Source: Arenicola marina
Taxonomy: Eukaryota > Annelida > Polychaeta > Arenicolidae
DNA length: 64,000 nucleotides
Direction of reading: 5' to 3'
Assembly (NCBI GenBank): GCA_964019135.1
Contig: OZ025253.1
Location: 7,135,059 to 7,199,058 of the forward strand
Shown here: one piece after another, positions 223 to 52,400 of the stretch
How the letters are laid out: every line of letters begins with the position of its first letter
Position numbering within the stretch: the first letter of the stretch is position 1
Made by a program: the position numbers and the translations under genes
Notes under the pieces: model-generated
The model's input: the letters and a program-made list of their open reading frames with translations, nothing else
What the model was told of the DNA's origin: nothing
The model's database searches: none

Positions 223-2260
223 CTAAAGATTCAACTTCGCGAAGTTAATTTGCATTCCATATCGTACTATAAACTCTCCCCTACTACAAATTGTACCTTT
301 TTCATTTATTAAGTCGTTTAAATATATAATACCTTTATCAGTGAACTCCTGCTTCCGCTTGGTTAAATTACCGTTGCACAAAAAGTAGGTGTTACATATG
401 GGCATGCATCTCACGTCTTCATGGGGCTGTTCATATTGTAACTTTACCCAAGCTCTGAATACATCTGACCAAAAGTGGTTTGATACGTTGTAAAATTTCT
501 GTAGTGACCTAAAATCTAATTCCCAACATAAAGCTATTTACTTACAGCTAAATGTACCAAATAAATCTTGCCATGCACCTCTCTAGAAATTAACCTGCGG
601 ATCCAAGATATCTTTATGGCATGCGCAAAAGTTTCCACTTGAGTAAGGGCGACACCGCCATATTTACCGATTTGTGCCAGGCGGTTAATACCTATCATAG
701 CCTGTGTTTTCCATATAAAACTGCGAATCACTTAGGTAAGTTTACAGAGGTTTTTTTTTGTCTAGTGATGGTAAGACAGACAGAACATGGAAAATTTTCG
801 GCAATGCTAGTGTCTTCAGAACTGTAACCTTGCCTGTCATCGATAAATGCCGTTTCTTATACAATGCTAGAAAGCTCTCAATCTTCCCGATTTTCCTGTC
901 GTTGTTCAGACTTGGCATTTTCGAGAGGTTCACATCAAATTGTATATCAAGCAACGTGAATTGGCTAGGCCGTTTAATTGGAAGGTTAGGGCAAATAGCT
1001 TCCTTCGAATTACTTTTCCGTCCAAGCCACACCCCGATCGTTTTATCGACATTTATCTTTAATCCCGAACATTTTCCAAATTTATTGAGTAATTCCATGG
1101 TATTTCTTAGTGATTCGGTGCTCCCGTCTAATAGTAAAACTGCGTCGTCTGCATATTGGCCTAGCTTGTGTTCTTTGTTTCCGAGACCTACACCACGTAT
1201 ACCTTTGTGCTGTTGCAATGCCACTGCAAGTGGTTCAATAGCTAGGATGAATAAGTATGGGGAAAGCGGGTCCCCCTGCCTACACCCTTTACCTAAATAG
1301 AAGAATTGATAAAAGTGACCGTTATTTAACACACAGCTAGAAGAATCTCTGTACAAAATATCACACCATTTTACAAAGGATTGCCCAAAACCATATGTCC
1401 TTAAAATATTAAAGATATATTGCCAACTTACAGTATCGAATGCAATCTCGAAATTGAGTAATAATAACAGGCCATCCAAATCACCTTCTTTTAAGTAATG
1501 CATTGCATCATATAAGAACCTGGTGTTTTCGCCTATGAATCTACCCCGAAGGAATCCTTTTTGCTGTGACCCAATCATTTCCTGCAAGACAACTCTTACT
1601 CGACGTGACATAATTCCTGATATAATCTTATAGTCTACATTAAGTAGAGTGGGGGGCCTCCAGTTTTTCAAATGAATCCTCGGCTTATCCCCCTTTGGTA
1701 AGCAAGTTATCACACCTTGTTTCTGAGTAATTGACAAACTGTCTGTCTTATACGCATAATTCAAACTGTTCACTAAATACTGTCCAACATCTCTCCAAAG
1801 TACTTTATAGAATTTTGCGGGGAATCCATCGCTTCCTGGGGTTTTATCGTTTTTCATATTCTTAAGTACCTCCTTAATCTCTTCCTGTGTTATCAGCACT
1901 TCACATGAATCTGTTTGCCTCTGGTGTAACATCTAAACATTCTTTTCATTAGGGAACTCATCTGTTGAACCCTGCTGGTCCACACCAGTGTATAATTTTT
2001 TCTCAAAATTCATTTGGGCCTTCAACATTATTTGCGGTTCCTCAATAATACAGTTTTCAGCCTCCACTTTATTTATCACCTTATTGACGTAGATCCTTTT
2101 TTCAAGTCCGCAAAAAGAACGTGTGGGTTTTTCTCCCTCTTCATAGTATTGTACACGTGATCTTAAAAAGACTGCGAAACGCTTGGGGAAGTCTGAGTTC
2201 CTCTAGCCTCCTGCTTAGCCTCCGTTAACTCATCAGCAAGCTGTGCTGCTCGATTAAGTT
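223..2260 (-). mobile_element. L1/Tx1-like LINE, reverse transcriptase ORF, inactive
   Basis: The longest open frame runs from 1932 to 742 (396 codons). It starts just before the reverse transcriptase fingers with NDKTPGSDGF, followed by LKNWRP, QKGFLRGR, RQGDPLSPYLFIL, QYADDAVLLL near residue 260 and SGLKINVDKT. This motif set is that of L1/Tx1-type non-LTR elements. The motif A block reads LLNFEIAFD, where the family has LDFEKAFD, so the first catalytic Asp is Asn and the enzyme should be dead. A T-run near 752-761 coincides with loss of frame. C-terminal pieces continue in other frames at 731-534 and 414-223 and match the LINE copy at 37.3-38.7 kb (for example KRKQEFTDKGIIY against KRRKEFIEKGVIF). 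Stops precede the frame at 1933. The 5' endonuclease part is absent. The far 3' end lies outside or is eroded. Confidence 0.9.
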
Positions 2261-7784: not shown

Positions 7785-10700
7785 GACTGACCAGTGGTCG
7801 GTCACCACTGGTCATTGCGACCAGTGTCAGTCACCCAGCGGAGACGAGTGAACGACCACTGGTCGCGAAGAGTGAAAAATCATTTGTCGCGATGAGTGAC
7901 CGACAACTGGTCGCCATGCGTGACCGACCACTGGTCGCAATGAGTGAAGACCATTGGTCGCGATGAGCGACCGACCACTGGTCGCGATGAGTGACTGACC
8001 ACTGGCCATGATGAGTGACCGACCGCTGGTGGCCATGAGTGACCGACCACTGGTCGCGATGAGTGACCGAATACTGGTCGCGATGAGTGAAAGACCACTG
8101 GTCGCTATAAATGATGACCACTGGTCGCGATGAGTGACCGACTAATCTGGCTTTTAGACCGACCACTGTTCGCGATAAGTGACGATCACTGGTCGCGATG
8201 AGTGACCGACCACTGGTCTCGATGAGTGACCGACCACTGGTCGTGGAGAGTGACCGACCACTGGTCGCGATGCGTAAAAAAGCATTGGTCGCGATGAGTG
8301 ACCGACCACTGGTCGCGATGAGTGACCGACTACTGCTCGCGATATGTGAAATACCGCTGGTCGCGATGAGCGACCGACCATTGGTCACGATGAGTGACCG
8401 ACCACTGGTGGCGATGAGTGACTGACGACTGGTCGCGATGGGTGACTGACCACTAGTCTCGATAAGCGAAAAAACACTTGTCGCAATGCGAGACCGACCA
8501 CAGGTCGCGATGCGTGACCGACCGTTGATCGTGATGAGTGACCGACCACTGGTCGCGATGAGTGACTGACCACTGGTCAGGATGTGACCGACAACTGGTC
8601 GCGATGAGTGACCGACAACTGGTCGCGATGAGTGACCGACCACTGGTCGCGATGAGCGACCGACCACTAGTCGCGATGAGTGACCGACCATAGGTCGCTA
8701 TGAGTGACCGACCATTGGTCGCGATGAATGACCGACCATTGGTCAAGATGAGTGACCGACCACTGGTCGCGATGAGTGACCGACCACTGGTCAGGATGAG
8801 TGACCAACAACTGGTCGCGATGAGTGACCGACCATTGGTCACGATGAGTGACCGACAACTGGTCGCGATGAGCGACCGACAACTGGTCGCGATGAGTGAC
8901 CGACAACTGGTCGCGATGAGTAAAAGACCACTGGTGAGGATGTGACCGACAACTGGTCAAGATGCGTGACCGACCACAGGTCACGATGAGTGACCGACCA
9001 CTAGTCGCGATGAGTGACCGACCACTGGCCATGATGAGTGACCGACCGCTGGTGGCCATGAGTGGCCGACCACTGGTCGCGATGAGTGAAAGACCACTGT
9101 TCGCTATAAGTGATGACCACTGGTCGCGATGAGTGACTGACCACTGGTCGCGATGAGTGACAGACCACTGGTCGCGATGAACGACCGACCACTGGTCGCG
9201 ATGAGTGACCGAACATTGGTCGCGATGAGTGACCGACAACTGGTCGCGATGAGTGACCGACCATTGGTCACGATGAGTGACCGGCCACGGTTCAGGATGA
9301 GTGACCGACAACTGGTCGCGATGAGGGACCGACCACTGATCGCGATGAGTGACTGATCAGTGGTCGCGATGAGTGACCGACCACTGGCCATGATGAGTGA
9401 CCGACCGCTGGTGGCCATGAGTGACCGACCACTGGTCGCGATGAGTGACCGACCACTGGTCGCGATGAGTGGCTGACCACTGGTCGTGATGAGTGACAGA
9501 CCACTGGTCGCGATGAGCGACCGACCACTGGTCGCGATGAGTGACCGAACATTGGTCGCGATGAGTGACCGACAACTGGTCGCGATGAGTGACCGACCAC
9601 TGGTCGCGATAAGTGACGACCGCTGGTCGCGATGAGTGAAAGACCACTGGTCGCGATGAGTGACCGACCACTGGTCGCGATGAGTGACCGACTACTGGTG
9701 TCGATAAGTGACCGACCATTGGTCGCGATGAGTGACCGACCATTGGTCGCGATGAGCCACCGACCACAGGTCACGATAAGTGACTGACCACTGGTCGCGA
9801 TGAGTGACCGACCATTGGTCACGATGAGTAACCGACCATTGGTCACGATGGGTGACCGACCACTGGTCGCGATGAGTGCCCGACCACTGGTCAGGATGAG
9901 TGACCAACAACTGGTCGCGATGAGTGACCGACCATTGGTCACGATGAGTGACTGACCACTGGTCGCGATGGGCGACAGACCGCTGGTCACGATGAGTGAC
10001 CGACCACTGGTCGCGATTAGTGACCGACCACTGGTCGCGATGAGTGACTGACCACTGGTCGCGATGAGTGACTGACCATTGGTCACGATGAGTGACCGAC
10101 CACTGGTCGCGATGAGTGACCGACCACTGGTCGCGATAAGTGACCGACCATTGGTCACGATGAGTGACCGACCACTGGTGGCGATGAGTGACTGACGACT
10201 GGTCGCGATGGGTGACTGACCACTGGTCGCGATGGGTGACTGACCACTGGTCTCGATGAGCGAAAAAACACTTGTCGCAATGCGAGACCGACCACTGGTC
10301 CCGATTAGTGACCGACCACTGGTCGCGATGCGTGACCGACCGTTGATCGTGATGAGTGACCGACCACTGGTCGCGATGAGTGACTGACCACTGGTGAGGA
10401 TGTGACCGACAACTGGTCAAGATGAGTGACCGACCACTGGTCACGATGAGCGACCGACCACTGGTCGCGATGAGTGACCGACCATTGGTCGCGAAGAGTG
10501 ACCGACCACTAGTCGCGATGAGTGACCAACCATTCGTCCATATGAGTGACCGACCACTGGTCGCGATGAGTGACTGACCACTGGTCATAATGAGTGACCC
10601 ACAACTGGTCGCAATGAGTGACCGGCCATTGGTCACGGTGAGTGACCGACCATTGGTCGCGATGAGTGACCGACCACGGGTTGCGATGAGTGACCGACCA

Positions 10701-13700
10701 CTGGTCACGCTGAGTCACTGACTACTGGTCAGGATGAGTGACCGACAACTGGTCGCGATTAGTGACCGACCACTGGTCGCGATGAGTGACTGACCACTGG
10801 TCGCGATGAGGGACTGACCACTGGTCGCGATGAGTGACCGACCACTGGTCGCGATGAGTGACCGACCACTGGTCGCGATAAGTGACCGACCACTGGTCAC
10901 GATGAGTGACCGACAACTGGTCGCGATGAGCGACCGACAACTGGTCGCGATGAGTGACCGACAACTGGTCGCCATGAGTAAAAGACCACTGGTGAGGATG
11001 TGACCGACAACTGGTCAAGATGCGTGACCGACCTATGGTCGCGATGAGTGACCGACAACTGGTCGCGATGAGCGACCGACCACAGGTCACGATGAGTGAC
11101 CGACCACTAGTCGCGATGAGTGACCGACCACTGGCCATGATGAGTGACCGACCGCTGGTGGCCATGAGTGGCCGACCACTGGTCGCGATGAGTGACCGAC
11201 TACTTGTCGCGATGAGTGAAATACCACTGTTCGCTATAAGTGATGACCACTGGTCGCGATGAGTGACTGACCACTGGTCGCGATGAGTGACAGACCACTG
11301 GTCGCGATGAACGACCGACCACTGGTCGCGATGAGTGACCGAACATTGGTCGCGATGAGTGACCGACAACTGGTCGCGATGAGTGACCGACCATTGGTCA
11401 CGATGAGTGACCGGCCACGGTTCAGGATGAGTGACCGACAACTGGTCGCGATGAGGGACCGACCACTGATCGCGATGAGTGACTGATCAGTGGTCGCGAT
11501 GAGTGACCGACCACTGGCCATGATGAGTGACCGACCGCTGGTGGCCATGAGTGACCGACCACTGGTCGCGATGAGTGACCGACCACTGGTCGCGATGAGT
11601 GGCTGACCACTGGTCGTGATGAGTGACAGACCACTGGTCGCGATGAGCGACCGACCACTGGTCGCGATGAGTGACCGAACATTGGTCGCGATGAGTGACC
11701 GACAACTGGTCGCGATGAGTGACCGACCACTGGTCGCGATAAGTGACGACCGCTGGTAGCGATGAGTGAAAGACCACTGGTCGCGATGAGTGACCGACCA
11801 CTGGTCGCGATGAGTGACCGACTACTGGTGTCGATAAGTGACCGACCATTGGTCGCGATGAGTGACCGACCATTGGTCGCGATGAGCCACCGACCACAGG
11901 TCACGATGAGTGACTGACCACTGGTCGCGATGAGTGACCGACCATTGGTCACGATGAGTAACCGACCATTGGTCACGATGGGTGACCGACCACTGGTCGC
12001 GATGAGTGACCGACCACTGGTCAGGATGAGTGACCAACAACTGGTCGCGATGAGTGACCGACCGCTGGTCACGATGAGTGACCGACCACTGGTCGCGATT
12101 AGTGACCGACCACTGGTCACGATGAGTGACCGACCACTGGTCGCGATTAGTGACCGACCACTGGTCGCGATGAGTGACTGACCACTGGTCGCGATGAGTG
12201 ACTGACCATTGGTCACGATGAGTGACCGACCACTGGTCGCGATGAGTGACCGACCACTGGTCGCGATAAGTGACCGACCATTGGTCACGATGAGTGACCG
12301 ACCACTGGTGGCGATGAGTGACTGACGACTGGTCGCGATGGGTGACTGACCACTGGTCGCGATGGGTGACTGACCACTGGTCTCGATGAGCGAAAAAACA
12401 CTTGTCGCAATGCGAGACCGACCACTGGTCCCGATTAGTGACCGACCACTGGTCGCGATGCGTGACCGACCGTTGATCGTGATGAGTGACCGACCACTGG
12501 TCGCGATGAGTGACTGACCACTGGTGAGGATGTGACCGACAACTGGTCAAGATGAGTGACCGACCACTGGTCACGATGAGCGACCGACCACTGGTCGCGA
12601 TGAGTGACCGACCATTGGTCGCGAAGAGTGACCGACCACTAGTCGCGATGAGTGACCAACCATTCGTCCCTATGAGCGACCGACCACTGGTCGCGATGAG
12701 TGACTGACCACTGGTCATAATGAGTGACCCACAACTGGTCGCAATGAGTGACCGGCCATTGGTCACGGTGAGTGACCGACCATTGGTCGCGATGAGTGAC
12801 CGACCACGGGTTGCGATGAGTGACCGACCACGGGTTGCGATGAGTCACTGACTACTGGTCACGCTGAGTCTCTGACTACTGGTCGCGATTAGTGACCGAC
12901 AACTGGTCGCGATTAGTGACTGACCACTGGTCGCGATGAGGGACTGACCATTGGTCACGATGAGTGACCGACCACTGGTCGCGATAAGTGATCGACCATT
13001 GGTCACGATGAGTGACCGACCACTGGTGGCGATGAGTGACTGACGACTGGTCGCGATTGGTGACTGACCACTGGTCGCGATGGGTGACTGACCACTGGTC
13101 TCGATGAGCGAAAAAACACTTGTCGCAATGCGAGACCGACCACTGGTCCCGATTAGTGACCGACCACTGGTCGCGATGCGTGACCGACCGTTGATCGTGA
13201 TGAGTGACCGACCACTGGTCGCGATGAGTGACTGACCACTGGTGAGGATGTGACCGACAACTGGTCAAGATGAGTGACCGACCACTGGTCGCGATGAGTG
13301 ACCGACCATTGGTCGCGAAGAGTGACCGACCACTAGTCGCGATGAGTGACCGACCATTCGTTCCTATGAGTGACCGACCACTGGTCGCGATGAGTGACCC
13401 ACAACTGGTCGCAATGAGTGACCGGCCATTGGTCACGATGAGTGACCGACCATTGGTCGCGATGAGTGACCGACCACGGGTTGCGATGAGTGACCGACCA
13501 CTGGTCGCGCTGAGTCACTGACTACTGGTCAGGATGAGTGACCGACAACTGATCGCGATTAGTGACCGACCATTGGGCACGATGAGTGACCGACCACTGG
13601 TCGCGATAAGTTTAAGGGTCACTGCTCGCGATGAGTGACTGACCACTGGTCAGGATGAGTGACCGACAACTGGTCGCGATGAGTGACCGATGATTAATCG

Positions 13701-13965
13701 CGATGAGTGACCGATGATTAATCGCGGCGACTGACCGACCAATGGTCGCGATGAGTGTCCGGTCACTGGTCGCGATGAGTGACCGACCACTGGTCACGAT
13801 GGGTGCCTGACCACTGGTCTGAATGAGTGACCGACAACTGGTCGCGATGAGTAACGGACCAGTGGTCACGATGAGCGACCGACCATTGGTCGCGATGGGT
13901 GACCGGCCAGTGGTCACGATGAGTGACTGACCACTGGTCACGATGTGTGACATCACTACTCTGGC
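7785..13965. repeat. 6.2-kb array of a 24-bp near-palindromic minisatellite
   Basis: About 250 head-to-tail units of consensus 'gatgagtgaccgaccactgg' plus 'tcgc' (24 bp). Each unit holds the near-palindrome CGACCA-C-TGGTCG, so one strand carries a central C and the other a central G. Unit length divides by three, which keeps long frames open on both strands. Variants occur as shortened units ('gatgtgaccgac') and units with 'gcgaaaaaacacttg', and they mark a higher-order structure. The array starts in degenerate units near 7785 and stops near 13965. The exit sequence 'ctctggcttatagacc' (about 13961-13976) resembles an internal segment at about 8144-8160. Confidence 0.95.
9090..12840. repeat. 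2,130-bp higher-order duplication inside the 24-bp array
   Basis: Rare variant units recur exactly 2,130 bp apart: 9841 and 11971 ('ggtcacgatgggtgacc'), 10261 and 12391 ('cgaaaaaacacttg'), and 10541 and 12671 ('tatgag'). Translations of 9292-10158 and 11422-12288 differ at only a few residues. A further partial copy of the same variants lies 720 bp (30 units) beyond, at about 13106. At the left edge (8.93-9.09 kb) the offset falls to 2,106 or less, because one copy has an extra 24-bp unit. Confidence 0.85.
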
Positions 13966-16618: not shown

Positions 16619-17022
16619 GTTGGGGATAGTAAAGTCAGGCGGCTAGCTCTAACCTTATCTGCATTCTCTCTCAGGAGAGAGACCGTGTGGCTCCTGGATT
16701 AATCACGATTTGGGATTAGGCCGCCCTTTCTCTCCCCCTTCGCTATCTGCCTATCGATAATCAGTCTCGCGTTTCAATGTCGTTTGGACACAACTTTAGG
16801 CCCTGTCATTGTCAGCCTGTCATGATATCTATTGCTCTATTATAGGGCGTTTTCCATTATGCGCGCGAGGTACTCCGGCCACAAGGATTTGTAAATCAAA
16901 CAAATTCATTGGGGCGGGGGAGGGGGGTTCAAATCAGGACCCTGAGCGTATCGTCTTCATCGCCGACAGAACTGTCTTCTCCCAATAATTCGCCAAACCC
17001 AACTGCCAAGTTATCCCCTGCC

Positions 17023-17069
17023 ATGGCAGCCATGTTGTGGTCGGATAACTCGGATTTCCTGTTTGGTTT
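17023..17069 (+). other. Possible short 5' exon (MAAMLWSDNSDFLFGF)
   Basis: An ATG in strong context (ctgccATGGca) is followed by a short open frame and a consensus donor gtaagt (17070 onward). It lies 0.4 kb upstream of the MAB21/cGAS-like ORF. Its phase (1) does not join in frame to either acceptor in front of that ORF (both need phase 2), so direct splicing to it is not supported. It may belong to another transcript or be chance. Confidence 0.2.
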
Positions 17070-17441
17070 CAGTAAGTGCGGAAATGTAAATGCGCATGCG
17101 CAAAATATCCGCTCGGGGCACGCGAACGGGATAATCGAAAACATCCATAGACTATATAACTTATAACTAGATCTATGACATAATAAATAAATAAATTAGA
17201 CTATGCCTAGCAAGCTAACTTACTGAGTGAATGTCTACTTCTTCTAAGAAGTTTTAGCTACAATAGCCTACATCTCTATGCAAAAGTAAATTTTTAAATA
17301 AGATTTAAAACTTATTTATCGTAAATAAACACAAATTTTGTCACAGACAGAACCACAGCTGCTAATGACACGACATTGTCTGACACGCTTTACCGATAAC
17401 AATTTGTAGATAAAGCTAGGCTAATCTAAATATTGCTGTGA

Positions 17442-19304
17442 ATGTTTTCTTTTTCTCATAGACAAGTGTCTAAATACAGTAAAAAAAATTTCCCTTTAAG
17501 GTCAACATTACCTGCATGCATCCTCCCAACGACCACAAGGACCCCCCAGACCGCCCCAACAACTCAACGGACCCCCCCGATCATCACCTGGCAGGTGAAG
17601 GTGCCAGGGATATACCCCCCTCAGGACGCCAAGGTCTACGCCGCCCGGTCGCTGGTAGAGGGCCGACTCCCCGGCACCCTGGCGGAGGAGGCGGCCAGAC
17701 TGGAGGGGGGTACCTATGACCGGGATCACCCGGACACGGTGGCCCTGCGAAACACACTCTTTAGGTTTGTTTGTGACCTGGTTAAGGAGGTGGGTAGGAG
17801 GGACCCCCTGTTCGCCGGAGTCCGCCTAAAGCTGGTAGGTAGTCATGGCGACGGGACAGATGTCAGACCGAAGGCTGTCGAATTCGACATTTTAGTTAGT
17901 GTGACGTGGGAGGGGGTGTGGGTGGTGAGGGAGGAAGTTGAGGATGAGGAGGGGTTGAGGGTGGTGTATAGTTTGTGGGTGAGTGGCGAGGCCCTGGTCG
18001 CCTGTCGGGAGGAGGGGAGGGGGGATGTCCTGAAAGGTGGGCGACGTGTCGTGGAGGGGGTGGAGGAGCGTGCGGTGGACCCTAAGGCCTTCCTCCAGCG
18101 CTGGGCGGACGGGCTGCATGCCGTGCTGCCCACCGTCGCGCTCCCCAAGGATCTGACCCACGGCGGCCTCCTCTCCCCCAGGTACACCGAGGTGAAGGTC
18201 GGCTACACAACTGTCACCCAGCCTCTGGTGTGGCGGGGAGTGACCCGGCTGACCTGTGACCTCACCCCCGCCTTCCCTGTCCCCCGAGGCGCCCTGAAGG
18301 GTGTCACCCAGAAGGCGATATGCCGCCTGGAGAGGGTGGCGCGGCTGAAGCGGTCCTCACACCCCGTCCACCTGGTGCCGCGGGTGCTGGGGAATACGTG
18401 GTTACCGACGACGTGTGTCGTGGAGACAGACGCGCTTCACACCCTCCGCCCCCGCTCACCCACCGTCACCCTCATCCGGGGCCTCAAGCTCCTGGCGCGG
18501 CACTACCTCCAGTGGCGCCCCCTGGATGAGATGGAGGGAGAGGTGAGGGAGGCCAAGGGCACACTGGCGGCCCTGGGGGGTGGGGGTGGGGGGTCCCTGG
18601 GGCGTATTGGGCGGGTGGACATGGAGGGTCTGTCTGAGTGTGTCAGGGAGTCGCTGGGAGGGAGGGTGAGGCTGCCAGAGAGGAGGGAGGGGGAGAGGAA
18701 TAGGCATGCTGGGGCGGGGGTTTACTGGAGCAGGGTGGCGCTGGTGGTGTCCGCCACCCACACAGCGCACAGGGCGGGGCGGGGGGCTGGGGGGTGTCAA
18801 GGTGAGTGTGACCTGTGTGAGGACCTGACCCGTGAGGCCCGAAAGCTGTTAGACAGGGACACACCTCCCCTCCACCCCGCCGTGGGGGAGGCTGTGGGGG
18901 TGCCACCCTCACCCCAACTTGAGGTCTGCTCCGCCTTCCTCAAATACCTCGTCTTGAGGAACTTGGTGGAGGGTGGGGAGGCAGGGAGTGAGAGGGTTGC
19001 GGACGGGGCAGAAGGGGGTGAGAGGGTGGTGCTGGGGGAGCTGGGGCGGTACATGGGGGACCTGGCGACTCGCTTGAAGGATGGGTGGGAGGGGTGTGTC
19101 CCCCACCCCCTGCTGAGTGGTGAGGGGGTGGAGGACATCTATCCGCGGTCAGAGCGGGGAGTGATGCTGGACACAAGTCTCCCAGAGCTCATTGACAAGC
19201 AGAAGTTACAGCATCCTGCCTGGCACTTGCTTCTCGACCCCTCCCTCTTTAGCTGTCACGCGGAGGTCTGCAGTCAGCTCTGTGACGTCACACAGGACAC
19301 GTGA
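17442..19304 (+). CDS. MAB21/cGAS-like nucleotidyltransferase-fold protein
   Basis: A 620-codon uninterrupted frame, strongly GC-rich against AT-rich flanks. It shows the MAB21/cGAS nucleotidyltransferase pattern: helical N-terminal lead, then LVGSHGDGTDV with the G-S loop at residues 133-134, then AVEFDILV with E147 and D149, and LTCDLTPAFPVP with D273. These match the G-S, E-x-D and distant D that bind metal in human cGAS and insect cGLRs. The C-terminal helical half contains RGLKLLARHYLQWRPL and HPAWHLL. In active relatives such enzymes sense nucleic acid in the cytosol and make cyclic dinucleotides; other MAB21 members are inactive. I see no obvious cGAS zinc thumb, so the ligand is unknown. 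The ATG at 17442 follows a TGA directly and sits in a polypyrimidine tract ending 'ctcatag', so the true exon may start at 17461 or about 17501 and the first residues may be intronic. Glycine- and Arg/Glu-rich linkers near residues 380-430 are low complexity. Confidence 0.8.
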   Translation: MFSFSHRQVSKYSKKNFPLRSTLPACILPTTTRTPQTAPTTQRTPPIITWQVKVPGIYPPQDAKVYAARSLVEGRLPGTLAEEAARLEGGTYDRDHPDTVALRNTLFRFVCDLVKEVGRRDPLFAGVRLKLVGSHGDGTDVRPKAVEFDILVSVTWEGVWVVREEVEDEEGLRVVYSLWVSGEALVACREEGRGDVLKGGRRVVEGVEERAVDPKAFLQRWADGLHAVLPTVALPKDLTHGGLLSPRYTEVKVGYTTVTQPLVWRGVTRLTCDLTPAFPVPRGALKGVTQKAICRLERVARLKRSSHPVHLVPRVLGNTWLPTTCVVETDALHTLRPRSPTVTLIRGLKLLARHYLQWRPLDEMEGEVREAKGTLAALGGGGGGSLGRIGRVDMEGLSECVRESLGGRVRLPERREGERNRHAGAGVYWSRVALVVSATHTAHRAGRGAGGCQGECDLCEDLTREARKLLDRDTPPLHPAVGEAVGVPPSPQLEVCSAFLKYLVLRNLVEGGEAGSERVADGAEGGERVVLGELGRYMGDLATRLKDGWEGCVPHPLLSGEGVEDIYPRSERGVMLDTSLPELIDKQKLQHPAWHLLLDPSLFSCHAEVCSQLCDVTQDT

Positions 19305-20510
19305 TCACTGACACACCAACCACGTCACGGGTGTTGTATCAAGTGACCCCAACAGGTGACGTCACAAGATGGCACGGTTTGTTTACATCTGGTGACTGAG
19401 TGAGGGGGGTGTAGAGGGTAGATGGAGGAGTGGGGCGGGGGGGAGGTGGGAAGGGTAGTTATTGGTAAGAGACCTTGAAACAAAATGGTGGCCGTTTGTT
19501 TACCTTTTTTCATGGATTGGGTTTCACTTTTTTTTTTTTCTTCCTTTCTTTTTAGTTTTTTTTTCATCAGACCCCACTTACTCTCATGTATGGGAATGAT
19601 CGTTTTATAGCTTCCTAAAATATAAGATACTTCGTGTTTTGGGCAACTTTAGAGATAATTTGTTTGGACTGATTTTGTTGGTTGGGGGTTACGTTTGATG
19701 GCGCTGGGGGGTGAACTCGCTAGCCTTCGACTGACTCTGACCGCTTTGACTACCGACTGCCTGGTCCGTTTTTTTCCAAAGTCGTATTTTATTTTGGGAT
19801 TGTTATTTTAATAAGTTTAATTGGGTCCGCAATCAGTGCTCCAAGCTCCAATTTTGTTTTTGTCAGCCTCCTATCCAGGTCACAACCCTCTGATGTGTTT
19901 CTTTTACACATGTATGGGAACGGTGTCCCATGAGGATATACCCCCCCCCCCCCCTCCCTGTATCTATCATAATGGCACCCTACGAACCCATGGAGCGGAG
20001 ACGGTCTTAATATCATAATATGTTATATAATACAATTTAGTGACTACTAAAGATATTCAGCAGGCAAAGTACAGTTTTTGGAAAATGTCCTACAAGTCTA
20101 GATAGTTTTACACTATGATAATGGAATAATATTAATTCCCCTCAAGTGTCAAAAGAGTCATAGAATTATCAAGGCTTTGTTGCATACATTATGATAATAG
20201 CTTTTGTATTGACAGTTTTCAAAGTTCAACATAAATATGCACATGTGAATTTCATAAATCCTCTGTTGTGTAACTTATTTGATCATACATTTCTCATAAA
20301 TTTACATGTTATATTTGATCTGCCGTGAAATTTAACATATATTGATCAGTGTATATTGTAGTATTGCTTTGTTTATTGATTGTCAATATCAACAATCTGT
20401 TATTCTTACGCCTATACAAATAGTTACATTGCACTTGTCTCACGCGATGTCCTGTACAACTTTGAGAAACAGTTATTAGTAATGTGGTCATTGTTAAATA
20501 GTAAAAATGA
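19305..20510. other. Gene-free stretch after the MAB21/cGAS-like ORF
   Basis: The first part is GC-rich with a G-tract and a T-tract (about 19530-19565), then AT-rich. No exon or repeat element was recognised. It probably includes the 3' UTR of the upstream ORF; I see no clear AATAAA close to its stop. Confidence 0.4.
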
Positions 20511-20512
20511 TA

Positions 20513-21450
20513 TGTTTGAATCACGGCTTCCACGTTAGAACCCATGATGAAATTGTACGCTCTACACTAGGTTGGTTGACGATAAAATCTCGCGTATTTA
20601 AGAATAAAATAATGTTTCTGCATAACTTATAGTCTATGCCCACATCGTGCATAGCTAAGCAATTGTTTTTGTCAAGGTTAACTTAATTTATACTATATAA
20701 AGAATTCCGAAAGGAGGGTTTTTTGCCCAACGTATGGACAATTTTAAAATGTTTTAATCTTACGGTTTTACTCATGAATTACTTCTATTGTATGGAATAC
20801 CCTACCAAGCAAACATGGCGTAACACTATTTTGAACTCTATACGTCAAAACGAGAATATGGGGTATATTGCAAGATTGTCGGCAAAAAATGGCACAACAT
20901 TATTTCTAAGCATCCAACCTGCCATATATATAAATAAATTGTATCGTATTTCACAAGATCATCCCTCTCACCGACAAAACTTGCTCAATTAAGTTAGAAT
21001 GCTGACAATACCAGATACAGACCTCCTTGCTTGCCCTTTTTGTTGTGAAACAGTGTGTAACATTCAGTGCCATATTATAATTTACTGCCCAGTACTAATG
21101 TGTACACGTTCCAAAATGTGGGTGGACATACTTAGAGTAATCTCCGTCCCAGAATTTACTTCATTGTTCTCGTACGCAGACACTAAACTGTGTGCGTTCC
21201 TATTGGGAGCACCATCTCAACTTGTTTGCGACCTAGTGAGAGAAAGCTTCATACTGTTTGTTTCGGAACATTTCGGTCCTTTACTAAGAAATATTAGACA
21301 AATGGCATATCATCAGTAACTTAAATTTTAATTTCAATACCTTGATATTTATATATGTGCTCGCTTGTTCGCTTCAGTTGAAGTCTTAATTAATTTAAGT
21401 GACTTGTTTGTATCCTCACTTTGATGGGAAATAAAGACCAAATCAATCCG
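20513..21450 (+). mobile_element. 5'-truncated CR1/Jockey-like LINE, 3' part
   Basis: Closely matches the C-terminal third of the LINE at 48.6-50.8 kb (for example RTHDEIV and LLMNYFYCMEYPTKQTWRNT). Frames 20723-20992 and 20999-21319 encode the post-RT domain. The second contains CPFCCETVCNIQCHIIIYC, a C-x2-C...H-x4-C zinc-binding motif found at the end of many LINE ORF2 proteins. A stop and frame change separate the two frames. The 3' UTR reaches about 21440 with 'aaataaagacc'. The abrupt left edge at about 20513 is the usual 5' truncation. Confidence 0.88.
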
Positions 21451-26057: not shown

Positions 26058-26441
26058 GACACGCTTGGACATTTGGGTGGAGCATACGTACCAATACACA
26101 GGTACATCTGGGCACAGCTCCCAAACGTTTCTCACCATCAGACGAACGTCGACGGTCGTTGCTGGTAAATGTCCGATCAATGTGCTGCCCTTGTACACTC
26201 CGACAGCATTACTGTCAAAACGGTTGCCGCGATCTCTTAATACTCTCAATCGGGTATTTCCGGGATTTTCATGGTATGCATGATACCCTTTCAAGACTGC
26301 GTGTATCTTAAAAATTGAAGACATCTGGAAATATGCCAGCTGCTCAGTCGTGGTCCGGAATCCTATCCCAGGACGAAACGCAATCCCGAAATCGTGTTCG
26401 AGACTGATTTCCGTCAGTATGGTCAGTTGACTGATAACCAT
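26058..26441 (-). CDS. HIRAN-domain protein exon
   Basis: The frame from ATG 26441 to TAA 26055 encodes 128 residues. The conserved part is FKIHAVLKGYHAYHENPG, then RVLRDRGNRFDSNAVGVYKG and STLIGHLPATTV. The R-D-x-x-N-x-F-D-x-N-A-V...IGHLPA pattern is the core of HIRAN domains, which bind single-stranded 3' DNA ends in HLTF and are also found as stand-alone animal proteins. A 'catatttccag' acceptor lies directly before an internal ATG (26324), so the coding exon may start there; the upstream residues come from the adjacent 36-bp repeat. A donor 'gtatgc' inside the frame (about 26090) could link to the exon at 25.8 kb instead of using the TAA. DNA binding is inferred from the family. Confidence 0.7.
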
Positions 26442-26660
26442 CCGAGACTGATTTCCGTCAGTGGACGGATAACCGTCCGGGACTGAAAACCGTCCGGGAC
26501 TGATTTCCGTCAGTGGACGGATAACCGTCCGGGACTGATTTCCGTCAGTGGACGGATAACCGTCCGGGACTGATTTCCGTCAGCGGACGGATAACCGTCC
26601 AGGACTGATTTCCGTCAGCGGACGGGTATCCGTCCGAGACTGATTTCCGTCAGATCCCAG
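26425..26660. repeat. 36-bp tandem repeat with two hairpins per unit
   Basis: About six units of 'gactgatttccgtcagtgga' plus 'cggataaccgtccggg' (36 bp). Each unit has two inverted repeats, ACTGA(tttccg)TCAGT and GGACGG(ataa)CCGTCC. It abuts the 5' end of the HIRAN exon. Confidence 0.9.
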
Positions 26661-29930: not shown

Positions 29931-30470
29931 TTCGGAATGTTTGTATAAGTTCAGGAGATAGCTGCGGCATTTGGAGGGGCCTGAGCGTTTTTTGTTTGTG
30001 TGAAGCCAAAGGATAACGTAAATGAGTTCATTGCGTTTCTAGTCCTGAGGAGTTTCTTAAAGAAAGTTTTAAAAATGGGCCTTTGATTCTATAAAGTGAC
30101 TACATTCAGTAAAGCAATGGTAAATGGTCTCTACGGTATCCTGACAAGATGGGCAGTTGGGGCTGTCTATCATCTTGCACTGATGCAGGTATTTGTTGCA
30201 ATTTAGTGTTTGGCGACAAAACTTCCATTGGAAATCGGATAGTTGTCGGTTCAACGACTTGTTGTCGATATCCCCGAAAATTTCATCTGGGTCCAATGCT
30301 GTATGGAACACCCTTTCCCAATTTAATACCCCTGCTGGGATCTCACACGCTGGATATGTATTTTTATAGTCTTCCAGAGGGTGGTTATCTTCGCCCAATC
30401 TCACTTGTATCAGCGTTATCTCAGGGGACATCATATCACTCCCATTATCCCGCCGCATTGCACAGCGCCG
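29900..30470 (-). mobile_element. L1/Tx1-like LINE C-terminal fragment
   Basis: Minus-strand frame 30458-30069 reads SDFQWKFCRQTLNCNKYLHQ, CPSCQDTVETIYHCFTEC, the C-terminal domain with C-x2-C...H-x4-C zinc-binding residues seen at the end of L1/Tx1-type ORF2. It lies tail-to-tail with the plus-strand RT fragment, so a junction of two fragments falls near 29.9 kb. Confidence 0.8.
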
Positions 30471-30593
30471 CCTGGGCGTGTGAGATTGGGAGGCTTAGAC
30501 GACCACTCTCTGCCTTTGATTCACTCCGCTAGGGACTCCGGAACGGCGCGCCACATAGCGAATCTCAGCATATTGAGTTTTGCCAGTCATTCG

Positions 30594-49400: not shown

Positions 49401-52400
49401 TTTGGGAGTCACCCAGGTACCATTTGCGAGACGAACAGTTCCTCATATGTTTTCTTTTACCCTCACCAAATACAACGACATTAGACTTAGAAGTCGAAAA
49501 GGTAAACCGCCATTTGACACTGTACTCGTGAGCACGATTAATCATTCTGTCTAGGCCATGTTTGGACAGTGATGCCAAGGTGGAATCATCCGCAAGGGTA
49601 ACACTACCTAGGTGCAACTGATTGACTTGCATACCATCGCCTTTGTCAACCCATTCGTGGATATCGTTATTGAAGACAGCATAGAAAAACATATAGAGGA
49701 GACCACCCTGTTTTATAGAGCGACTTATATCAAATTTATCAGAATAACGTCCATCGAGCAGAACACTGCATCTGCTTCCAAGTAACCAGTTTCGAAAAAG
49801 AAGCCAAAGTTTGCCTCGGACGCCAAGTTGTTATAGCTTGTACAAGAGACCGTTCCACCACACTTTATCAAAAGCTTTTTCGGCATCTAAGAAACAGGTA
49901 TATACTTTGCTGGACCGCTCCGTGTGATAGCATATCGCATCTTGCAACGTATAGGAGGCCAACGAACTATTACAACCAGACCTGCAGGCAAATTGTAGCG
50001 GGTGAGGAAACCTAATTGTCTCGAGCCATGGTTGAAGCCTATTCCAAACTACTTTTTCTAGCAGTTTGTTCAGGGTGGGCATTAGAGTAATGCCCCTGTA
50101 CGAGTCCATAAGGTGTTTGTTTTTTCTCTTGCCTTTATATAGAGGAATAAGCACCCCCGTTTTAAAGGCCTCCGGGACCTGGTTAACGGAAGCAATTTGA
50201 TTAAATAATATGGTTAACTTCTCGTATAAGGTATCACTGGCAGATTTCAAGTGTTCATACATAATCAAATCGTACCCCTGTGCTTTCTTATTTGGCAAGA
50301 ATGAACAAGCCAGCTTAATTTCAAGAACACGAAACGGCGTCTGTAGGACTCCAACGGGGTCCTCGTTACCTTCGCATTTAACCACAAAGTCAGCGACCGC
50401 TTGATCTATAAACGCCTTGAAATTTGCGTCATAATTAAGGGATTCCTCTGGACTCTCGTTTAGCAACCGTTCGTAATAACCTGCCCAGCAACTTCTGACC
50501 TTATTAGGCTCACTTAATAAGACGCCTTCCGACTGGATTGAATGCCAGGCTTTTACAGTACCGCTACGTTTACTGACAGCTCTCCAGAAACGACCCCTAT
50601 CTAGCTCGTACTCACTCTCGACCTGCAATAACTGCTGCTCATCATAGCTTTCTTGCTTTCGGCGTAAAAGTTTAGCAAAAGCTCTCTTCGATCTTTTATA
50701 AGAAAGGAAACTATTATACTCTGCTCCCCTTGGCTTGCCTTCATTAATCCAAGTGTGGCGTAATTTTAACCGGGGTAGGCCCAGTTATTAACCTTATTAT
50801 GGGACAGAAGAAAATTCACTAGAGACTAGCAGGACTGGGCAGTTGAAAATTTATGATAGGTCCCTCAGACAAAGGGAGGAGGGTGGGGGGGGGGAGGGGC
50901 GCTGTGAATTTTGTGTTTCGGGTCTGCATGGCAACCCGTTCCAGCCACTATTCCCACTCTATTTCAATTTGTTTATTCATTGCTAAAAAGGCGTGCGTGT
51001 CCGGATAAAGTCATATCATGTGTGTGTGCGTCAAAGGGTGGGGATGGGGGTGGGTATGGGTGGGGGGGGGGTCTGTAGCTTAACCTGTGATAGGCTTCCA
51101 TATATATGTATATTAATATACATAAACTCTACATTTCTGATATTGCACAGAAATAAAGATGCATTTCAGATCAACAAGTTGATTCACAATATGTTACGCC
51201 TACGCAGAGCTGTCAAACCAGCACAGCTTTAAACACTTTAAACAACATAGACACACACCAGACGACGTTATCATGCGCACCGATGCCCGCGTAACCTTTG
51301 ACCTCAGCAAAATCAAAATGGCGAATCGAAATTGGAAATTCGTGTTTAAGACGCCGGCTGGCAATTCAGATTCAGAGTTTTATCTTGTTAGCGTAGAGAA
51401 ATGTTGTATTCTAAAAGGGATAACATCGCAGTACACACGTAAGTTTGGCATCATTAGAATTGCCCGCTGTTGCTTTGTCACGTCAGTGATTTTCAAAGCG
51501 ATTGCGGGAAATTCGCGGAAAATATAGGCCAAAACGTCAGTCTACGGCATTTATGACTTTGACTTTATGACCGACAGAATGTTCTATCTTTGACTTTAAG
51601 GTGACGCCTGAGTGGGGAAGGAAAAATGTCGAGGAGGAATATGCAAAGTGGGGCTGTTCTTAACGTGGACCAGGCAGATATCCCTGTTAATTAAATTAGG
51701 AAATCTATGGTAAATGTACAACTATGTCGTTGGTCACGTTCGTGAGTGTTTACGGGGGTGAAAGTGTTGGGGTAGAGATATATGCCATCCAGGAAATGTA
51801 TCACTTAGATCTACTTCCACTGCCTATGGTCTCTATGAACAGGGACGTCATACAGGCTGTGTGAGGAGGGCGCACCGCGCTCCGGCCGCTGTCAGCCCTG
51901 TGATCCAGGCTTCCTGACCCCGCCTTCTAACTCCACACACGCTCTGGAATGTATGCCAGAGACAATGTGTTTAGGTAAGTCCGGCGACTCATCCATCTGC
52001 CATATTAGTGCTAAAGAAACGAATCAGTGCAGTAAATGCCAGGCGTGAGTCATACGCCAGCTATCCTGAAACATTTTCTCGCCCTGAAAATGACCGAGCC
52101 CCTCTGCCATCCATACCTCTACTCCCCCCCCCCCCCCTCCGCCCTCAGCCACCCCCTCCGCCGCACGCCAAGTTTCGCTTCGCTTGGGAGGAAGGGATCC
52201 CCCACCTCTTGTGAACGTGCAGGCCCTTCTCATCTGTGGACCCCCCCCTTTTATTTTGACATTCCGTATCCCCCCCCCCCAACCCCCGCCGCTGTCTCGG
52301 GTGTGACCCACGGGAGCAGTCTCCCAGCAGAGCGACATCGTTCCTCACATCACCTCTGCCCCCCCCCCCGCCGCTGTCTCGGGTGTGACCCACGAGAGCA

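Follow-up and report, generated by a model that had tools for sequence, protein, structure and literature searches.

A family of cGLR-like nucleotidyltransferase genes, probably encoding active putative sensors, in the genome of Arenicola marina

Radiations of cGAS-like receptors (cGLRs) are known in bivalves and corals, with more than 200 cGLRs in Crassostrea virginica and Dreissena, as described in the preprint of Li et al. 2023 (PMC9980059). The final selection of cGLRs in that text uses a G[S/G] activation-loop motif and an [E/D]h[E/D] pair, followed after 50-90 residues by a third [E/D], while h[QT]GS serves only to refine the search matrix. The nucleic-acid-sensing cGLRs reported there have a pI above 8.5. 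The words "annelid" and "Capitella" are absent from its main text (PMC9980059). Among open-access papers, judged by titles and the beginnings of abstracts, we found none that dealt with a cGLR radiation in annelids or with hypervariability in cGLRs.

We investigated a gene of Arenicola marina that a sequence-only reading had proposed as a cGAS-like receptor candidate with all catalytic positions kept. We consider it fairly likely that this gene belongs to a lineage-specific radiation of cGLR-like nucleotidyltransferase genes, the products of which are probably active putative sensors. Beyond the initial reading, the sequences point to a family, to diversifying selection, to a His/Cys cluster in the C-terminal lobe and to a probable intron over the assumed start.

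The window gene and its upstream boundary

The window is the whole stretch of 64,000 nucleotides that was analysed, positions 7135059-7199058 of contig C6 in the A. marina genome (867 Mb, 762 contigs). An open frame of 620 codons, with no stop, lies at window positions 17442-19304 (+). Its translation, P0001, carries G133-S134, E147-x-D149 and D273 at exactly the residues where they had been read.

We compared the upstream sequences of 20 loci. In 19 of them the conserved coding sequence is directly preceded by a pyrimidine-rich stretch with AAG or TAG at its end; L017 has no such stretch. The length of this acceptor-like stretch varies between loci and breaks the frame. The window copy has a short version of it (TTTCCCTTTAAG), which follows a run of A. 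The ATG at 17442 is absent from some copies in the same alignment. Since a frame-breaking acceptor-like stretch precedes the conserved coding sequence and some copies have no such ATG, the exon probably starts at 17501, in phase 2, and the ATG at 17442 is probably intronic. The main coding exon would thus span 17501-19304 (+), that is residues 21-620 of P0001 and the stop, with indels that keep the frame, and an intron would end with the segment 17442-17500 (+). We looked for the true first exon in the upstream alignment of the 20 loci and did not find it. A conserved block of 200 bases at 16642-16841 (+), nearly whole in 7 of the 19 other loci and partial in 5 more, is a candidate promoter or 5' UTR. 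The 3' flank (19305-20517, +) is common to other copies in locus comparisons, to a varying extent.

Several other observations were made. The window has approximately 306 bases at 16842-17147, compared with only about 4-60 bases in 7 of the 8 copies aligned on both sides and about 340 in L023, and this segment is a possible insertion. A 24-bp minisatellite of 255 units occupies 7846-13951, and it also occurs near family copies at C6 12.45 and 12.92 Mb. Reverse-transcriptase fragments (RVT_1, zf-RVT in Pfam) were detected at 745-1932 (-), 49834-50784 (-) and 30072-30494 (-), and 26058-26579 (-) gave a weak HIRAN-domain match (E 0.0012, under its cut-off). The mitochondrial contig, 15.9 kb long, follows the invertebrate code, in which AAA stands for Lys and AGR for Ser. 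Its genes, named by eye from open frames, follow on one strand the order cox1-cox2-atp8-cox3-nad6-cob-atp6-nad5-nad4L-nad4-[gap with tRNA-Val, taken as the rRNAs]-nad1-nad3-nad2, which we take to be the common annelid order.

Relation to cGLRs and conservation of the catalytic residues

We extracted 36 copies of the gene and aligned 33 of them (alignment A1), leaving out L022 and L048, which have short frames, and L026, a near twin of L025. The G133-S134 activation-loop motif (17838-17843, +) was conserved in 32 and 33 of 33 copies, respectively. Both E147 and D149 of the metal-binding pair E147-F148-D149 (17880-17888, +) were present in 32 copies, and so was D273, the third metal-binding acid (18258-18260, +). 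Conservation at this level indicates that the metal-binding set is more than a chance pattern. The exception was L018 (C6:22.75 Mb), a naturally dead copy with G133D, E147G, D149N and D273R, whose frame is otherwise open. The set was also present in L022, in L026 and, by eye, in L048. Eight more copies were chosen by position from the clusters on contig C3. Six of them cover the active-site region; four are intact, and two are altered, L077 (E-C-S, E273) and L078 (K147). The frames of two of the eight, L074 and L079, are broken. Altogether, the metal-binding set was intact in 39 of the 42 copies that cover the region, of 44 sampled, so the outcome that would have spoken against the initial reading, homologues all lacking the acids, did not occur.

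When compared with the published selection, the family has the G[S/G] motif and the [E/D]h[E/D] pair, but 123 residues separate D149 from D273. This spacing is also greater than 90 residues in L001, a cGLR of the same genome which Pfam recognises (counted on a permissive hhalign alignment). In place of h[QT]GS the family has V-G-S, and the cGAS chain 7lz3_A reads LVGS too. The published search criteria, as written, would therefore exclude the family because of V-G-S and the 123-residue spacing.

Searches with P0001 gave no match in Pfam (E<=1), NCBIfam or PADLOC, and no meaningful phmmer match in the PDB. The Pfam Mab-21 model (PF03281) matched 0 of 33 family members at E<=10. It had 23 matches in the genome, none at a family place among the places listed. 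We then used an HMM built from six Mab-21/cGLR-type proteins of the same genome (L001, L006, L007, L065, L067 and L068), all from loci over the PF03281 cut-off. With this HMM all 33 members outscored the best of 990 shuffles (0.6 bits), and none of the 33 reversed sequences was listed. The best E value was 3e-7; 29 of the 33 members had E <=0.034, the other four 0.25-2.8, and the window copy scored 12.2 bits (E 0.0047). In hhalign, the nucleotidyltransferase part matched the own-genome cGLR profile with Prob 82.6 and E 9.7e-6. The score was 45.6, whereas the best of 150 column-shuffled controls reached 22.4 and the reversed control 21.5. Matches to the four-sequence A2 and three-sequence A3 cGLR profiles were weak (Prob 3.3 and 5.1, respectively). 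The only PDB chain that the family profile matched at E<=10 was cGAS 7lz3_A (E 0.33), aligned on GS...EFD. In a permissive hhalign run D273 coincided with the third Asp of L001; residues 310-345 came to lie close to the W...E stretch of cGLRs, at low confidence.

We conclude from these profile comparisons that the N-terminal lobe is homologous to Mab-21-type cGLRs. The MAB21-type fold of the initial reading is supported by sequence for the N-terminal nucleotidyltransferase lobe, whereas the C-terminal lobe gave no sequence match. With a home-made Mab-21_C profile of nine own-genome proteins, a comparison run without a positive control, 0 of 33 members scored above shuffles. This was so for the last 260 residues and again when the test began 30 residues before the SxPVHLV stretch (two members that lack the motif were entered as their last 330 residues). 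Pfam Mab-21_C (PF20266) gave no match either. Two single-sequence AlphaFold models had pLDDT of 36.3 and 37.1, values too low for a reading of the fold.

Taken together, the family resembles the animal cGLRs of PMC9980059, as presented there, in the G-S loop, the E-x-D pair, the third acid and a homologous N-terminal lobe. It differs from them in escaping Pfam Mab-21, in a spacing outside the published pattern, in an unrecognised C-terminal lobe and in site-specific diversifying selection. With MAB21L1/2-type developmental proteins it shares an N-terminal lobe of the same fold family, but it keeps the full metal-binding set and has a very high copy number. The own-genome cGLRs L001, L067 and L068 are recognised by Pfam, unlike the family, and a spine helix, G-S, E-x-D and hDh are found in both. 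Two of these genes, L068 (C1:29.45 Mb) and L067 (C18:16.87 Mb), have GS...DEFDF and hDhT motifs and are likely ordinary cGLRs of the same animal. Because the spacing and the Mab-21 models failed, and because activity is deduced from sequence, we do not file the family as strict cGLRs, although the gene appears to work like one.

The catalytic layout is also like that of vertebrate cGAS, to which the PDB match, as given above, was weak. The zinc thumb of vertebrate cGAS is an H-C-C-C insert. No obvious zinc thumb had been seen in the initial reading, and we agree: the permissive hhalign puts the thumb near residues 337-345, a part aligned with low confidence, and that stretch has no Cys/His cluster. 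The family has a separate cluster in the C-terminal lobe, H440-x2-H443-x8-C452-x3-C456-x2-C459 (18759-18818, +), with its five residues conserved in 32, 32, 32, 33 and 33 of 33 copies. On C3, L076 has Q at position 440. We rejected this HxxHx8CxxxCxxC cluster as the cGAS thumb because of its position; a metal site there is possible but would be a guess. The calculated pI of the window exon was 6.6, and 40 sequences ranged from 4.8 to 9.1 (median 6.1). Given the value above 8.5 reported for nucleic-acid-sensing cGLRs, the pI is no pointer to a dsDNA or dsRNA ligand for most members.

Codon variation among the copies

The mean dN/dS was 0.90 over 32 copies (L018 excluded). When calculated in 20-codon windows, dN/dS was lowest at codons 130-149 (0.18) and was 0.36 at codons 430-449. 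In the C-terminal hypervariable segment, residues 550-609 (19089-19268, +), it reached 1.5 at codons 550-569, 2.3 at 570-589 and 3.4 at 590-609.

These values bear on the alternative that survives best, namely that the proteins are nucleotide-binding pseudoenzymes or scaffolds, expanded for another role such as partner-protein binding, in which the acids are kept for folding or for metal/NTP binding. MAB21L1 and MID51 are examples of such pseudoenzymes or scaffold proteins. The C-terminal lobe unlike Mab-21_C would suit this explanation, as would the high dN/dS across much of the protein and the open frames of L077 and L078 (593 and 629 aa), which have lost acids. Nevertheless, the minimum of dN/dS falls exactly on the codons of the G-S loop and the E-x-D pair, and most copies retain the full metal-binding set. 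We therefore regard the pseudoenzyme explanation as rather unlikely, and retain that of probably active cGLR-like enzymes.

The reading frame is maintained. When neutral evolution to an equal divergence was simulated in a simple way, 5.1 stops per copy were expected (P(0)=0.002). Among indels in seven pairs of copies, 41 of 48 in the coding sequence were multiples of three, and six of the 7 other coding indels formed three frame-restoring pairs. In the 3' flank, where gaps >=60 were left out, the count was 13 of 46.

We observed nine or more amino acids at 27 of 570 codon sites. Residues 550-609, which comprise 59 sites, contain fourteen of these (hypergeometric P 2.6e-8, for a segment picked post hoc). 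At the 27 variable sites codon positions 1, 2 and 3 differed in 0.60, 0.62 and 0.30 of comparisons, respectively, and at the other sites in 0.17, 0.16 and 0.18, so position 3 is also raised at variable sites, though less. The excess was repeated in L025-L026 (12/25 vs 62/507), of which L026 was not used for the choice of sites, and in six C3 pairs, none of which was used (8-13 of 24-26 vs 46-58 of 501-508). The variable codons have an NNY/NNG look, and DGR-like mutagenesis was considered for this reason; we dropped it, as invariant A bases are interspersed with these codons and selection by itself would look no different.

For the comparison of whole genes we used ten pairs, that is the four closest A1 pairs, L025-L026, four of the six C3 pairs and the window copy with L010 (simple counting, kappa 1). 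In nine of the ten dN/dS exceeded 1 (1.22 to 3.51), and the one-sided P was below 0.05 in seven, with P values uncorrected and pairs non-independent. The pair of the window copy and L010 had dN/dS of 1.41 (P 0.03), and L044-L050 had 0.38.

A decaying family under relaxed constraint, in which hypervariability is neutral drift, would explain the overall dN/dS close to 1, provided that one disregards the maintained frame and the pairs above 1. It would also explain the stops at a few genomic places (see below) and the broken frames of L074 and L079. The low value of L044-L050 we count against our own explanation. The kept frame, the conserved active-site motif, the clustering of variable codons and the significant pairs above 1 are all contrary to it, and we find it very unlikely. 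As judged from these codon comparisons, the family is under diversifying selection, which is strongest in the C-terminal half.

Copies across the genome, STING-like loci and possible function

The genome-wide search with P0001 gave 71 scored places, the best of 616 first-look candidates (78 matches, seven places being in more than one piece). They were located on C6 (57), C3 (9), C7 (3) and C20 (2). The 65 other near-full-length places were 65-76% identical to P0001. There was no stop in the matched stretch at 64 of the 71 places and one stop at 7, but intact copies are over-represented in this set, because only the best candidates were scored.

Copies were further counted with conserved DNA words, allowing up to 3 mismatches and with reversed words as controls. 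The 32-mer at the G-S...E codons was found at 84 genome places (63 on C6), the 24-mer at the SATHTAH codons at 163 and a 27-mer at 152; each reversed control gave 0. At least 163 places thus carry a segment of the family, a count that does not imply the share of intact genes. Among the matches listed (all 84, and the first 100 each of the 163 and 152), copies were present at 6.6-45.4 Mb of C6 and at 2.2-15.8, 23.8-25.2 and 55.8-58.9 Mb of C3, with singles elsewhere; seven contigs were involved (C3, C6, C7, C8, C13, C18 and C20), mainly C6 and C3. A tree of 40 sequences joined the window copy to L010 (98/85) and united the six C3 copies that cover the active-site region (100/100). IMG/VR and GTDB, which are collections of viral and prokaryotic genomes, yielded no confirmed relatives, as would be expected.

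The ends of flank homology, relative to the gene, vary between copies in the 20 loci, and segmental duplication therefore fits better than transposition. No common transposon ends were seen in pairwise comparisons of the 20 loci or by eye at L018. A mobile element or passenger gene, spread by transposition and not a host sensor, would account for the many dispersed copies on seven contigs and for homology to several partners that can end at the same base of one locus, but it is the least probable explanation, given the varying end points, the flanks and a minisatellite shared by the longer stretches compared, and a frame maintained with dN/dS >1.

We also searched the genome with the STING_LBD profile. 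Its 10 exon-size matches represent one locus on C7 (the best, E 7e-17) and six loci at 19.02-20.86 Mb and 33.71 Mb of C6, the chromosome that also carries most family copies. This co-location is suggestive only, as the C6 loci may have arisen in tandem from a single founder. At C6:19.64 Mb (L069 1693-4208, -) a TIR-like exon (TIR_2 E 2.4e-4, under the curated cut-off) lies upstream of two STING exons that share its orientation (E 3.5e-10 and 5.7e-9). A TIR-like exon was established at this one STING locus only, and its TIR-then-STING order resembles that of oyster TIR-STING as described in PMC10732462.

If the family is a radiation of cGLR-like enzymes, each protein would act as a sensor and bind a ligand through its variable C-terminal surface. 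The bound ligand may order the G-S loop and the active site, where E147, D149 and D273 would hold two metal ions for synthesis of a cyclic or linear di- or oligonucleotide. This product could in turn activate the STING-like proteins encoded by the same genome. It is conceivable, though we put it forward tentatively, that the family forms a germline-encoded antibody-like repertoire on a cGAS-type enzyme, in which well over 100 genes with one catalytic engine and differences at approximately 27 hypervariable codons would each recognise a different ligand, and all would signal through one common second messenger to STING-family proteins.

Since the family escapes Pfam Mab-21, cGLR counts based on Mab-21 models could be too low. 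The variable codons, set against the conserved active site, suggest where ligand recognition may lie. NLRs and FREPs are known examples of diversified receptor repertoires. With positive selection acting on the whole gene, a cGAS-like family would stand beside such repertoires as an invertebrate counterpart.
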